A DNA stretch of 64,000 bases, taken from contig NZ_FOZS01000001.1 of assembly GCF_900116205.1 (NCBI RefSeq), positions 1,240,001 to 1,304,000 of the forward strand, given 5' to 3'. The stretch comes from Halostagnicola kamekurae. Lineage in GTDB: Archaea; Halobacteriota; Halobacteria; Halobacteriales; Natrialbaceae. Below the pieces are notes generated by a model. The model searched no databases. It saw only the letters and a list, made by a program, of their open reading frames with translations, and was not told the DNA's origin. This document shows positions 8,518 through 22,195 of the stretch, one piece after another. How positions within the stretch are numbered: the first letter of the stretch is position 1; each line of letters opens with the position of its first letter. A program made the translations under genes and the position numbers.

Positions 8518-8605
8518 TCATCTCTAAAGATTCTCGAAGGTGGCATATATTCTTCGTACGAGCGATAGGGGGACGTTGCTCCGGAGTGACGTAGGTCTGA
8601 ATCCG

Positions 8606-8640
8606 ACTCTGTTGAAATCCTATTGGTTCGACAGCTTTCC
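8606..8640. repeat. Orphan end of an IS5-type element
   Basis: The sequence beginning CTCTGTTGAAAT and continuing CTATTGGTTCGA is nearly identical to the reverse complement of the right end of the element at 21197-21643 (CTCTGTTGAAAT followed by TCTATTGGTTTGA). No transposase frame or second inverted repeat is found near it. It therefore appears to be a solo end left by deletion or decay of a second copy. Confidence 0.65.
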
Positions 8641-8737
8641 CACTGAAACGGCCGTTAGGTAGGACTGTGTATCAAGCAGATCGGCTTTAATGTCTAATAG
8701 AAAGCATTATGTGTCTGTGTTTTGAAGTTCTTATTGT

Positions 8738-9010
8738 ATGCCCTCTAAAAAGACAGTTGGAGCTGCGCCATTGATCACAGGAATTTTGCTCGCGTTCCAA
8801 TCAGCCGGCACGATCGTTCAAAACGGACTTTCGCTGTGGTCGGTCCCCGGTTTCATTGGTGGTTGTGCTGCTATCGTTATCGGTCTCGGGATTCTACTTG
8901 AATGGGACACGTTCAAACGAGATGCGGTGGGGCGCAACCGGCCTTCTGTGGCTGTTCTTGGATTCGCTGCCGCCGTATTTTTCGCCGGTGCAGCAATTTC
9001 GATCGCATAG
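8738..9010 (+). CDS. Small membrane protein, unknown function
   Basis: A 90-residue protein with three hydrophobic segments (about residues 9-24, 35-52 and 70-88), a basic N-terminus (MPSKKT) and a short loop containing EWDTFKRDAVGRNRP. The start is ATG at 8738 after an AT-rich stretch. It lies 100 bases from the orphan IS end. No family is recognised. It may belong to the set of small membrane proteins carried by the island. Confidence 0.6.
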   Translation: MPSKKTVGAAPLITGILLAFQSAGTIVQNGLSLWSVPGFIGGCAAIVIGLGILLEWDTFKRDAVGRNRPSVAVLGFAAAVFFAGAAISIA

Positions 9011-9434
9011 AACGACAGAGAACAACATCCGCCCCCATATTTTGTACGCAATGCTGACACCTACTACTCAGGAACTCAAGAAACACCTTCAGCTTTCCCT
9101 GAGAGAGATCGGAACCTTACACGTGTTGCTGTAATATATTATACCATACGCTCTTCTGTAGGAGATTGTTGACACTGCTCAGTTGTCGCTGTGGAATCGA
9201 AGAGAGCAAGGGCACCTCCCGGCGAGCCGTGACAATGTCTGCGACTCACGGGTCGACAGACTCTTTCGTTGAATCTCTGCGCCACTTGTTGACCTCATAG
9301 CGGCTCAGCGTTCATAGACTCTAAATCGCATCAGTGATAAATGCGTCTTGAAATATAGTTTGAGAAAAGCGGATCATAGGCCGGTAGACGTACACAGAAT
9401 CTAATCTGATCTGAATACAAACTCCATCACTTCG
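9011..9434. other. Non-coding gap
   Basis: No supportable gene. A strong AT run (taatatattatacc) near 9133-9146 resembles a TATA element but no convincing start follows it at the usual distance. Confidence 0.4.
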
Positions 9435-9679: not shown

Positions 9680-10013
9680 TTATTCTGCCTCATCGAGAAA
9701 CGAGACGAATTCTGCTTTGCCAATACCCTCGGTGGTGATGAGCTCGCCGTGTCCAGGACAGGTAACAGATTTAATGAGGAAGTCCGTACAGAGCTCTGTA
9801 TGCACGTCACCATAGTACGCGTAGGCCGCTGAACGAGTGAAATCGCGTGCGGTCGCAATCCTTACAGAGATACCGCTGATGCTCTCGATAGCTGCCGTGT
9901 TTGATCATTGACTCAGACCGTCAGCGCGGGCAGTAGAGCCCGTTGCGCCAGAGAACCTGCTGGAGCAGGTTCGCGGCGCTCGCCTCTGATCTCAGCAATT
10001 CAAATGGGAACAT
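9680..10013 (-). pseudogene. Decayed IS1595-type transposase, N-terminal part
   Basis: From ATG at 10013 the frame reads MFPFELLRSEASAANLLQQV, then LWRNGLYCPR followed by TGA, then RSESMIKHGSYREHQRYLCK and DCDRT near 9846. This is the zinc-ribbon start of haloarchaeal IS1595-family transposases, normally CPxC followed by CxxC. The TGA stands where the second cysteine of the first pair should be. After 9846 the frame shifts and only an unrelated-looking open stretch runs on to a stop at 9680. The catalytic domain and element ends are not seen. Confidence 0.6.
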
Positions 10014-10242
10014 TGCATTCGGGTGACGCGGCAGCGTCACCCTTGCCCGCTACGCTTCTCCAGCGCCAGCTCTACTCAACCAACAACCTGCTTCCGAAGA
10101 GCGTACTTGAATAGAGTTTGATCAACTCTCGCGATAAGCGACGATCGCGACACTGAGCGTAATCCTGTGGTCGTCGGTCAGTCGTCATTCTGTTGGTTAT
10201 TATCTCATCGGATACCTAGTAGTATGAGTGCCCCTCATTGAT

Positions 10243-20220: not shown

Positions 20221-20565
20221 ATGGACGAGGACGGCGACGATGAACTCCTCGCGTTGCTCGACGACGAGTACGCGCGAGCCATCCTCGCCGAACTCACCAC
20301 AGAACCGATGTCTGCCTCCGAACTCTGCACAACCTGTGACATGTCCGATCCGACAGCGTACCGACGCCTCGAACGGTTACAGGAGGCCGATCTCGTGGCT
20401 GAAAAACAGATGATCGACCCAGATGGCCACCACTACAAACGATACGTGGCGACCGTAGACGAAGTATCAGTCACGTTCGAAAATGGTGCGTACGAAGTGG
20501 CCGTGACGAGATCCGCGACGAATCCGGCCGACAGATTCACGGACCTGTTCGAGGGGTTGTCCTGA
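20221..20565 (+). CDS. wHTH transcription regulator of cassette D
   Basis: A 114-residue paralogue of the regulator at 15326. The shared segment is LLALLDDEYARAILAELTTE, followed by a helix-turn-helix (MSASELCTTCDMSDPTAYRR), a wing with DGHHYKRYVA and the end RFTDLFEGLS. The start is supported by the TATA-like element 28 bases upstream. Its stop is directly followed by the ATG of a membrane protein with no spacer. It is divergent from the CPBP protease. No exporter genes follow in this copy. Confidence 0.85.
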   Translation: MDEDGDDELLALLDDEYARAILAELTTEPMSASELCTTCDMSDPTAYRRLERLQEADLVAEKQMIDPDGHHYKRYVATVDEVSVTFENGAYEVAVTRSATNPADRFTDLFEGLS

Positions 20566-20895
20566 ATGCTGGACGTATTGTTACAACTACGTTCGCCATC
20601 GTCGGACCCGGTGATGGTAGCCACCGTCGTTCTCCTGACGCTGCTGTCGATCAGTCTCTCTGTCGGAATCGCCCTCGTACTCATTCGCGGCTATCGTCGG
20701 GGGCCAGGACACCCAGGAATGCTGTATCTCGCGCTCGGCCTGGTTCTGCTCACGACCGTTCCGGAACTCCTCCGAGTCGGACTGCCGACTCTCACGGGCG
20801 TGGGTACAGCCGGCCGGTCTGTACTCGTGAGCGGGAGTGAGCTTACCGGGTTAGGAATCATCCTCTGGACGATCTACGGAGGTGGGTCCCAGTGA
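20566..20895 (+). CDS. Small membrane partner 1 of cassette D (DUF7521-like)
   Basis: A 109-residue protein with three hydrophobic segments and the connecting motif LVLIRGYRRGPGHPGMLYLA, equivalent to LYIVFQAFRGYRRN in the cassette C protein. The ATG abuts the TGA of the regulator gene, implying translational coupling. Its TGA overlaps the next gene as GTGA. Confidence 0.75.
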   Translation: MLDVLLQLRSPSSDPVMVATVVLLTLLSISLSVGIALVLIRGYRRGPGHPGMLYLALGLVLLTTVPELLRVGLPTLTGVGTAGRSVLVSGSELTGLGIILWTIYGGGSQ

Positions 20896-21194
20896 TACCT
20901 GTGTCTCTGGGTACAGAGGTTCTCTCGCCCGGCAGTATTGCCTGGCTCTCGCGAGGATTGACCGCACTCATCGGTCTGTTCGTCGCAGTGCTGGCCTATC
21001 GCGGCTTCAAACGAAATGACGCCCCGAAGATGCGCTTACTCGCTCTCGGGATCGGGCTTCTGACGACAGGAGTATTCCTGGCAGTTTCAGTCGCGAACAT
21101 CGCAGGAGCGGACACAGGAGATATTCTGATAGCACGTGGACTCGTAACCGTGACTGGCCTCTGTGCCGTGCTACTGGCGCTTTTGTATCGATAA
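20892..21194 (+). CDS. Small membrane partner 2 of cassette D (DUF7521-like)
   Basis: A 100-residue protein, three hydrophobic segments, with VAVLAYRGFKRNDAPKMRLL as the family-type loop. It starts at GTG 20892 overlapping the previous stop by 4 bases. Two tandem copies of this family after one regulator is specific to cassette D. An IS-derived element begins 3 bases after its stop. Confidence 0.72.
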   Translation: MIPVSLGTEVLSPGSIAWLSRGLTALIGLFVAVLAYRGFKRNDAPKMRLLALGIGLLTTGVFLAVSVANIAGADTGDILIARGLVTVTGLCAVLLALLYR

Positions 21195-21196
21195 TA

Positions 21197-21643
21197 GCTC
21201 TGTTGAAATCCTCAGAGAGTTACAAGTTGTCCCGGTGGTCTAACCAGATGGAAGCGCTCCCGAAGTCTCGGTTACTCCGGTTTGTTGAGCGGACGTATCA
21301 CTTGTCTCAGCAAGCTGTCGCTCGCTACTCTTCGAAATTCTCGAAACGGCGGTATACACTCCATCAACACATCGTCTTGCTCTGCCTCCAGGTGCGGAAG
21401 AATACAACGTACCGGACTCTTCTCGACGAACGTATCGAGACGCCTCGGATCGCAACGCTCTCGCTCTTGAGGAACTCCCCGTCTCCTTCGACGTTGTGTG
21501 AGTCGTTCAACCGGTTCGATATGGCTGTTTGGCGGGTTCTTCTCAACCTCTCAGTCACGCTTCTTCCGACCAACGACGGGATTGACACCTCTGGGTTCGG
21601 TTTCAGCGGGGAAAATATCAAACCAATAGAATTTCAACAGAGC
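21197..21643 (+). mobile_element. Internally deleted IS5-type element
   Basis: The left end GCTCTGTTGAAAT and the right end ATTTCAACAGAGC are perfect 13-base inverted repeats enclosing 447 bases. Inside is only the N-terminal part of a transposase. No target-site duplication is visible (left flank ATAATA, right flank CCGTAC). This looks like a non-autonomous, deleted copy. The right flank is a truncated integrase gene, so the element probably took part in a deletion. Confidence 0.75.
21248..21643 (+). pseudogene. Truncated IS5-type transposase
   Basis: From ATG 21248 the frame gives MEALPKSRLLRFVERTYHLS and then RYTLHQHIVLLCLQVRKNTT, typical of haloarchaeal IS5-group transposases, up to the first catalytic region near GIDTSGF. 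The frame then passes directly into the right terminal repeat. The rest of the DDE domain is missing, so it should be inactive. Confidence 0.75.
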
Positions 21644-21874
21644 CCGTACAACCGCTTTCGAGATCCCAGACGTAGCGATAGAACCGATCCATGTGGTAGC
21701 AGCGAGGTATCACGGTCCCCGGTGCGTACCCGACAGCCTCGACCGGTTTCTTCCCAAACATCAGCAGCCACTCTAATCACTCTTCGCGCTCGGAGCGGTA
21801 GTCGAGCAGCTGCCGTTTGTCAGGTACGACTCCGAATCTTCAGTGACAATCGGGTAATCATCGAGGTCGATCAT
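21644..21874 (-). pseudogene. N-terminal fragment of a tyrosine integrase
   Basis: From ATG 21874 the frame reads MIDLDDYPIVTEDSESYLT. After a one-base shift it continues KRQLLDYRSEREE, TGA, LEWLLMFGKKPVEAVGYAPG, then HMDRFYRYVWDLESGCT. This is the SAM-like N-terminal domain pattern of haloarchaeal XerC/D-type integrases. The TGA stands where a tryptophan is expected. The gene is cut at 21643 by the IS-derived element, so the catalytic domain is gone. Its position 247 bases from the 3' end of tRNA-Glu fits a tRNA-targeting integrase. Confidence 0.65.
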
Positions 21875-21902
21875 TCTCGCGCCTCCGTCGTGCGGTTTTG
21901 GG

Positions 21903-22038
21903 TATAGCCCTGCGAATCCGCTAATGATGGGCAAATTCTGGAATCACCCGACAGAACCGGAATGCCGTGTGAGTCCTGTGAATCGCATAGCCCGGCAAAA
22001 CCTGAAAACCGCAAGACGACGTAGCTGTATGTGAATCC
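21903..22038. repeat. Three short direct repeats next to the integrase fragment
   Basis: TGCGAATCC (21911), TGTGAATCG (21978) and TGTGAATCC (22030) repeat in the same orientation. The first two are accompanied by GTATAGCCC and GCATAGCCC. GCGGTTTT at 21892 and AAAACCGC at 22005 form an inverted pair around them. They lie between the integrase start and the tRNA, where arm-type or excisionase sites of integrative elements are often found. That function is not proven. Confidence 0.35.
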
Positions 22039-22120
22039 TTCGAATCTACTGGCCTGAGCGTTGAGTCGAACATTGGTGACCTCCGCAGACCAAAACCACA
22101 AGAAGGCGTCGGGAAAGGAG

Positions 22121-22195
22121 TGCTCCGACTGGGATTCGAACCCAGGTCATTGCCGTGAGAGGGCAATATGATTGGCCGGACTACACCATCGGAGC
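22121..22195 (-). tRNA. tRNA-Glu (anticodon CUC)
   Basis: A 75-base cloverleaf. The acceptor arms GCTCCGA and TCGGAGC pair perfectly, and the anticodon stem TTGCC/GGCAA encloses CTCTCAC with anticodon CUC. The T arm is CTGGG TTCGAAT CCCAG and the discriminator base is A. No intron is seen and CCA is not encoded. A TATA-like element lies just upstream. The degenerate integrase lies downstream of its 3' end, marking it as the probable insertion site of the island. Confidence 0.95.

Follow-up and report, generated by a model that had tools for sequence, protein, structure and literature searches.

A deletion anchored at the ends of an ISHla2-like insertion sequence probably truncated a tRNA-Glu-associated integrase gene in Halostagnicola kamekurae

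An IS remnant joins a truncated integrase gene

In the window, the whole 64,000-nucleotide stretch of H. kamekurae DNA analysed here, which spans 1240001-1304000 of contig C1 in this haloarchaeal genome (G000), an internally deleted insertion sequence (IS) directly abuts the remnant of an integrase gene beside an intact tRNA-Glu gene. Both joints of this scar are exact, a target duplication is absent, the remainder of the integrase did not turn up in the genome, and a relative carries the intact counterpart. We consider it likely that a deletion anchored at the IS ends made the scar, and homologous recombination between two IS copies is the most likely route. The reading as an IS-anchored deletion is well supported, and the scar is of an ordinary kind.

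The IS is of the ISHla2-like, IS5 type and lies on the forward strand at 21196..21644, as judged from its end repeats and the comparison of copies. It was first delimited at 21197-21643 (447 bp), one base shorter on each side than the canonical ends, which were taken from 37 of the 42 related elements described below. The inverted repeat arms at 21197-21212 and 21628-21643 are 94% complementary over 16 nt (15/16) and identical over the outer 13, so that the two 13-base ends reported in an earlier note on this DNA are indeed present, with the canonical ends one base further out. The terminal repeat of the relatives, GGCTCTGTTGAAAT, starts at that additional base and is found at both ends of the remnant (left, 21196..21209, forward strand; right, 21631..21644, reverse strand), with an A instead of the consensus G at the outermost left base, 21196.

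Between the ends, the 5' part of a transposase gene, with small indels, runs on the forward strand from 21248 to approximately 21599 and reaches about residue 118 of 273. The encoded N-terminal fragment belongs to the family's transposase and shows 76% identity over residues 2-121. The earlier note had spoken of the first third of the transposase; it is the 5' part alone that remains, as stated, but the share is larger, about 43%. In a Pfam scan of an intact relative, DDE_Tnp_1 occupies residues 109-268 of the transposase. Compared with copies that have both ends, the first ~403 bases of the remnant match the left end and the transposase 5' part (84% DNA identity to the copy in genome G056 over query bases 1-403, E 1.7e-121), the last ~45 bases match right ends, and the middle is missing. 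The right-end module occupies 21600..21644, which places the internal deletion joint at about 21599/21600; by eye it shows little or no sequence repeat. Deletions between short repeats have been reported for haloarchaea in the available text of PMC3119063. The window copy holds no passenger gene, its cargo slot being lost. As the earlier note had it, there is no target-site duplication: the flanks agree at 3/8 positions at the canonical ends and at 4/8 at the first-delimited ends, against 8 bp in intact relatives. Because the 8-bp duplication is absent, the window IS is a remnant and not an intact member of its family.

The outer right base of the IS meets integrase codons directly, exact to the base. 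The integrase remnant (21645..21874, reverse strand) comprises ~77 N-terminal codons with one frameshift and one in-frame stop, and its protein is 83-84% identical to its two best homologues. The intact counterpart has 367 residues, or 387 when the upstream extension of the ORF is included. In the 387-residue ORF the break falls at about residue 97, inside a stretch (65-137) that resembles Phage_int_SAM_4 just below the Pfam cut-off of 27 (25.7 bits, E 1.5e-5 in the intact homologue); the right end of the IS thus abuts the middle of an integrase N-terminal domain, as had been proposed. The Phage_integrase catalytic domain spans residues 231-373 of the intact homologue (E 4e-16), and the remnant, ending at ~97, is without it. 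The gene is that of a tyrosine integrase of viral type.

A spacer at 21875..22119 separates the integrase start from the intact tRNA-Glu (CTC) gene (22120..22195, reverse strand), the presumed integration site. The spacer is conserved with the intact loci of genomes G038 and G079, the stretch containing it showing 81% and 85% DNA identity, respectively. The remnant adjoins the tRNA 3' end, as is the case for tRNA-targeted elements. The rest of the integrase, which the earlier note had called missing, was not found anywhere in this genome (99.94% complete, 16 contigs) with the 387-aa intact homologue as the query and E values up to 10; the matches were the two remnant pieces and five distant ones of at most 33% identity. 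The missing part was also looked for, as an intact sequence, to the left of the IS remnant, and no integrase sequence was found there.

The integrase locus in related genomes

Comparison with related genomes, which the earlier note had suggested, yielded complete IS copies as well as an uninterrupted integrase. In G038, an intact integrase lies beside tRNA-Glu(CTC) in the same layout, the next gene past the tRNA is the same as in the window, and a second integrase stands convergent to the intact one. DNA identity between the window and the intact loci is continuous through the integrase start, the spacer and the tRNA. Integrase matches occur in 59 of 125 family genomes. Thirty loci were fetched, one of which is the window itself (L033), leaving the 29 best homologous loci; at 23 of these the fetched flank contains tRNA-Glu (22 CTC, 1 TTC), and the others have tRNA-Gly (2), tRNA-Met (1), tRNA-Arg (1) or no tRNA (2). 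Locus L061 (9440-10875) of G079 has the same integrase and spacer beside a sequence that matches only about the 3' two-thirds of tRNA-Glu, where no tRNA was called, and two further integrase-like genes adjoin it.

This location resembles that of the haloarchaeal tRNA-Glu integrase islands (Nmag_0465, HVO_2815A and another) described in the available text of PMC3119063, where an integrase likewise sits beside a complete tRNA-Glu; the likeness is one of location. In contrast to those islands, the integrase in the window is cut to ~77 codons by the IS, and no truncated tRNA copy was found. The intact homologue also shares features with SNJ2-type integrases as presented in the part of PMC8371274 at hand, namely Phage_integrase, a sub-threshold Phage_int_SAM_4 and the association with a tRNA, and the likeness is by these features alone.

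None of four same-genus relatives has an integrase match at E 0.001. Synteny with these four genomes runs to window positions 22114-22118, just past the tRNA 3' end, and then stops. Past tRNA-Glu, G002 has a tRNA-like gene and guaB, G001 and G004 have a carbamoyltransferase-like gene (all named by eye), and G003 has others. The neighbours of tRNA-Glu thus vary between genomes, and the tRNA gene is therefore a busy site. The guaB-tRNA block, again named by eye, lies ~330 bp from tRNA-Glu in G002 (G002:C9:352077-367144) and ~160 kb off, inverted, in the genome of the window (G000:C1:1101078-1116288); the region has therefore undergone other rearrangements too.

This displaced block lends some colour to an alternative origin of the scar, in which an inversion or translocation through IS copies split the integrase halves and the distal half was lost later: a block near tRNA-Glu in G002 is here far off on the other strand. 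We regard this origin as unlikely. No IS end of the family (at most 2 mismatches) occurs in the 19.5 kb that surround the tRNA end of the displaced block and extend past it, the genome search recovered no split-off integrase part, and G002 itself may be derived, because the tRNA has still other neighbours in G001, G003 and G004.

The far border and the left flank

A 20-mer search of the whole genome, allowing up to 2 mismatches, found no copy of the tRNA-Glu 3' end that would mark a far border. A search with shorter words over 461 kb hit the tRNA itself and, apart from it, a single word of 12 nt at 1046271 together with a few that were 11 nt long or had one mismatch; the longest exact repeat of the tRNA 3' end elsewhere over 319 kb is 10 nt. 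Archaeal attachment sites can be shorter than the 20-mer searched, 13 bp being given for SNJ2 in the available text of PMC8371274. Among 11 comparison loci (a twelfth, G009, was dropped for its contig end), the tRNA 3' end recurs 5-54 kb away at four: the copy is exact over 40 nt at two loci and has at most 3 mismatches in 24 at the two others. The remaining seven have none within the 40-60 kb looked at. The missing far site is weak evidence, because these seven loci are without one too.

To the left of the IS, a winged-helix regulator gene and two genes for DUF7521-type membrane proteins, the first of which scores under the Pfam cut-off for DUF7521, form an operon (20221..21194, forward strand). 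The operon's final stop codon ends 2 bp short of 21197, directly before the IS left end. Homologues of this operon are present in four genomes (G053, G056, G057 and G065), with no tRNA within the fetched stretches; for this reason, the operon need not be cargo of the integrase. In the sequence downstream of the homologous stop codon, G056 and G057 resemble each other, and G065 and G053 differ. This comparison of operon homologues turned up no uninterrupted left flank, which counts against our best explanation.

The DNA left of the joint is thus not supported as part of the integrated element, and the scar warns against naming it the island of the integrase. It follows that the earlier note's further proposal, that the deletion fixed the island in place, finds no support: besides the left DNA not being tied to the integrase and a distal site not being found, the integrase remnant carries lesions of its own, the frameshift and the stop, which may have arisen before or after the deletion.

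Origin of the scar

The following course would account for the scar. A mobile element may have entered tRNA-Glu(CTC) and left its integrase gene beside the tRNA. Copies of the ISHla2-like IS would then have inserted at two places, one in the integrase gene and one, separately, just downstream of the DUF7521 operon. A deletion between the two copies would have taken out four-fifths of the integrase gene from its 3' side, together with the remainder of the integrated element and probably the far attachment site, leaving one hybrid IS whose flanks come from two different target sites; the lack of a target duplication would follow from this origin of the flanks. A separate, internal deletion may have cost the hybrid IS its cargo slot and the second half of the transposase. 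The former second IS copy, the recombination and this order of events are what we infer from the joints and the comparisons above.

Both joints fall on terminal bases of the IS. This supports a deletion at the IS ends and speaks against a random deletion, as the latter would not be expected to end there. In addition, unmatched flanks are found among the both-ended IS copies in relatives, 7/18 of which agree at 4/8 positions or fewer. Recombination between IS copies is preferred, at modest odds, because it accounts in a single step for flanks that do not match, for the integrase loss and for the absent far site, and because IS-to-IS rearrangements are reported in a haloarchaeon: the available text of PMC10544981 describes how, in Halorubrum lacusprofundi, fusion and loss took place at copies of ISHla1, which its authors ascribe to homologous recombination. 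Against recombination, neither site shows a second IS copy.

A deletion made by the transposase would leave an identical scar, so that the earlier note's IS-mediated deletion, borne out by the breakpoints lying exactly at the IS ends, the missing duplication and the integrase rest not being found, stands undivided between two processes. According to this second process, a single IS located downstream of the DUF7521 operon took a site within the integrase gene as its target; its transposase deleted the intervening DNA, and the IS stayed at the joint. Joints exactly at the IS ends and the lack of a target duplication are what it predicts, and IS903, of the IS5 family, makes such adjacent deletions; nothing in the scar separates it from recombination. 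We nevertheless judge it the less probable course, with perhaps a minor chance of being right, since the sole full-length copy of the same subfamily seen in the genome (contig C5, 1928 bp) carries a frameshift in its transposase gene. An active source could have been present in the past, however, or a more distant intact transposase, at C5:7931-8752 (45% identity), might serve.

A plain insertion is disfavoured, because it should show a duplication. An insertion into the integrase gene whose duplication decayed, the rest of the gene being lost independently later, would agree with the degenerate state of the integrase remnant (frameshift and stop), but we hold it to be very unlikely. The right repeat is intact and the left is off at one outer base, yet 5/8 positions of the supposed duplication differ; one would not predict a later random deletion to halt precisely where the IS begins on its left; and no integrase sequence turned up on that side. 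Even harder to credit is that the 447-bp piece is a mobile non-autonomous (MITE-like) derivative that jumped as it is. It has both ends and an incomplete transposase, and transposase-less elements are common in Haloquadratum according to the available text of PMC3119063, but it lacks a target duplication, and among the matches listed from the 125 family genomes, with few candidates scored per genome, none but the window's own crosses the joint at base 403. The genome of the window has five other matches to the remnant, all partial, and these searches did not find several copies with duplications. As a scar, the locus shows one way for an integrated element to be deprived of its integrase and to persist as anonymous DNA.

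The ISHla2-like family and its target duplications

The name ISHla2 is the nearest one seen and comes from the annotation of a relative. This relative, on plasmid pHLAC01 of Halorubrum lacusprofundi (NC_012030), is annotated as IS5-like ISHla2 family, and its transposase is 81% identical to the query. Across 25 plasmid records listed for relatives, 17 are annotated as IS5 family, 1 as IS5-like ISHla2 family, 1 as IS6 and 1 as IS4, and 5 are unnamed. The pHLAC01 copy has the same kind of terminal repeat and the same transposase family as the window copy, and the flanks are unmatched in both. It differs in being a 1193-bp element with a 57-residue ORF between the transposase and the right end, whereas the window copy is without the second half of the transposase and without cargo.

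Two sets of elements were examined for target duplications. In the named-genome set, the best 80 of 288 related loci, from 28 named haloarchaeal genera, identical 8-bp flanks are found at 32/80 loci and a 7/8 agreement at one more. The family-genome set has 37 loci, 20 of them with both ends; 18 of these 20 were analysed, and nine of the 18 have identical 8-bp flanks. The two not taken, L021 and L097, lack matching flanks. Over all 117 stretches this gives 41 elements with identical 8-bp flanks and one with 7/8. Identity over 8 bp has a chance of 1 in 65,536 per flank pair, to be read with the fact that the named-genome set kept the best of all end pairs at each locus.

The 42 elements run from 1,071 to 3,237 bp (among those named are loci in the L161-L240 range, L016, L079, L084, L088-L091, L100 and L103), and two pairs, L079/L161 and L192/L194, are repeats with the same length, flanks and cargo. 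The transposase starts at base 53 in 39/42 elements. In the remaining three, L221, L224 and L225, additional DNA precedes the transposase. Two of these, L221 and L225, have another left end immediately ahead of the transposase and within the outer flanks, as a fusion of two copies would produce. Two neighbouring elements are present in L213 (577-2058). The full copy in the window's own genome, on C5, has flanks that agree at 7/8, and its cargo ORF appears lipoprotein-like by eye.

Variable cargo between transposase and right end

In other elements of the family, surplus DNA sits between the transposase stop codon and the conserved right end, with a surplus ORF of at least 50 codons in 40/42 elements. 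An all-against-all comparison of the cargos found three related pairs only, the repeats L079/L161 and L192/L194, and L100/L199 at 65%. A Pfam scan of 19 of the 41 cargo ORFs gave nine matches at E 0.01, one of them to the transposase of a nested IS, and none for 10/19. The matches include an O-methyltransferase, a TehB-like methyltransferase, RibD_C, an alpha/beta hydrolase, DUF7344, BAT, maltose acetyltransferase and, in L076, an element with unmatched flanks, phosphatidylserine decarboxylase. The reading of these ORFs as genes is limited by a shuffle test, in which the longest cargo ORF was reached by at most 5 of 100 base shuffles in only 23/35 stretches; the test covered 35 of the 42 elements and omitted three with extra left DNA, two repeats, one with the nested transposase hit and one without an ORF. 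By eye, two cargos recur under other flanks: L082 has the O-methyltransferase of L172, and L083 has the secreted-looking protein of L084. This suggests that element and cargo move together.

We tentatively propose, at somewhat less than even confidence, that ISHla2-like elements are gene collectors: the transposase and left end are constant, a right-end module of ~60 bp is conserved, and the content of the slot between them is swapped so often that nearly every element differs. A slot may gain its content where a gene lies between two copies that then collapse into one by internal deletion, and the extra left ends in L221 and L225 may be half-collapsed pairs. ISs that bear passenger genes are known in general; the available text of PMC3129680 uses the term transporter IS for them, and that of PMC10544981 mentions one transposon passenger gene in H. 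lacusprofundi. Like transporter ISs, the intact ISHla2-like relatives have within their mobile units ORFs with no relation to transposition; they differ in having another ORF at the same slot in almost every element, a slot that the window copy has lost. We found no earlier description of variable cargo in the ISHla2-like family in the literature, mostly the openly readable part of it and ISfinder apart, so that a prior description is possible. This family matters more than the scar: its elements are 1-3 kb long, hold mostly single, varied genes, and would be a simple vehicle of gene transfer.

The window may hold two products of slot collapse, the deleted element at 21196-21644 and an orphan right end with its neighbouring ORF at 8605-9010. 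The orphan right end of the family (8605-8664) faces a 90-aa ORF (8738-9010) that looks like a membrane protein by eye, has no Pfam match, and is matched in 8 other genomes of the 125, in four of them at the DNA level. At the four closest of these loci, no IS end lies near the homologue within 3 mismatches; three remoter loci have an end-like word at 3 mismatches, about the chance level; and none of ten loci of the ORF (0/10) has an ISHla2-like transposase. The stretch 8605-9010 may thus be what is left of a cargo-bearing element, or the ORF may be a chance neighbour. Homology of the window to the closest locus begins at ~8671, just inside the right-end module. Further along, window positions 9147-9216 and 9846-10105 match a region of G079 (L061, 12911-13170) where an ORF resembles, by eye, the transposase of a different IS type, and they are perhaps a further IS remnant.
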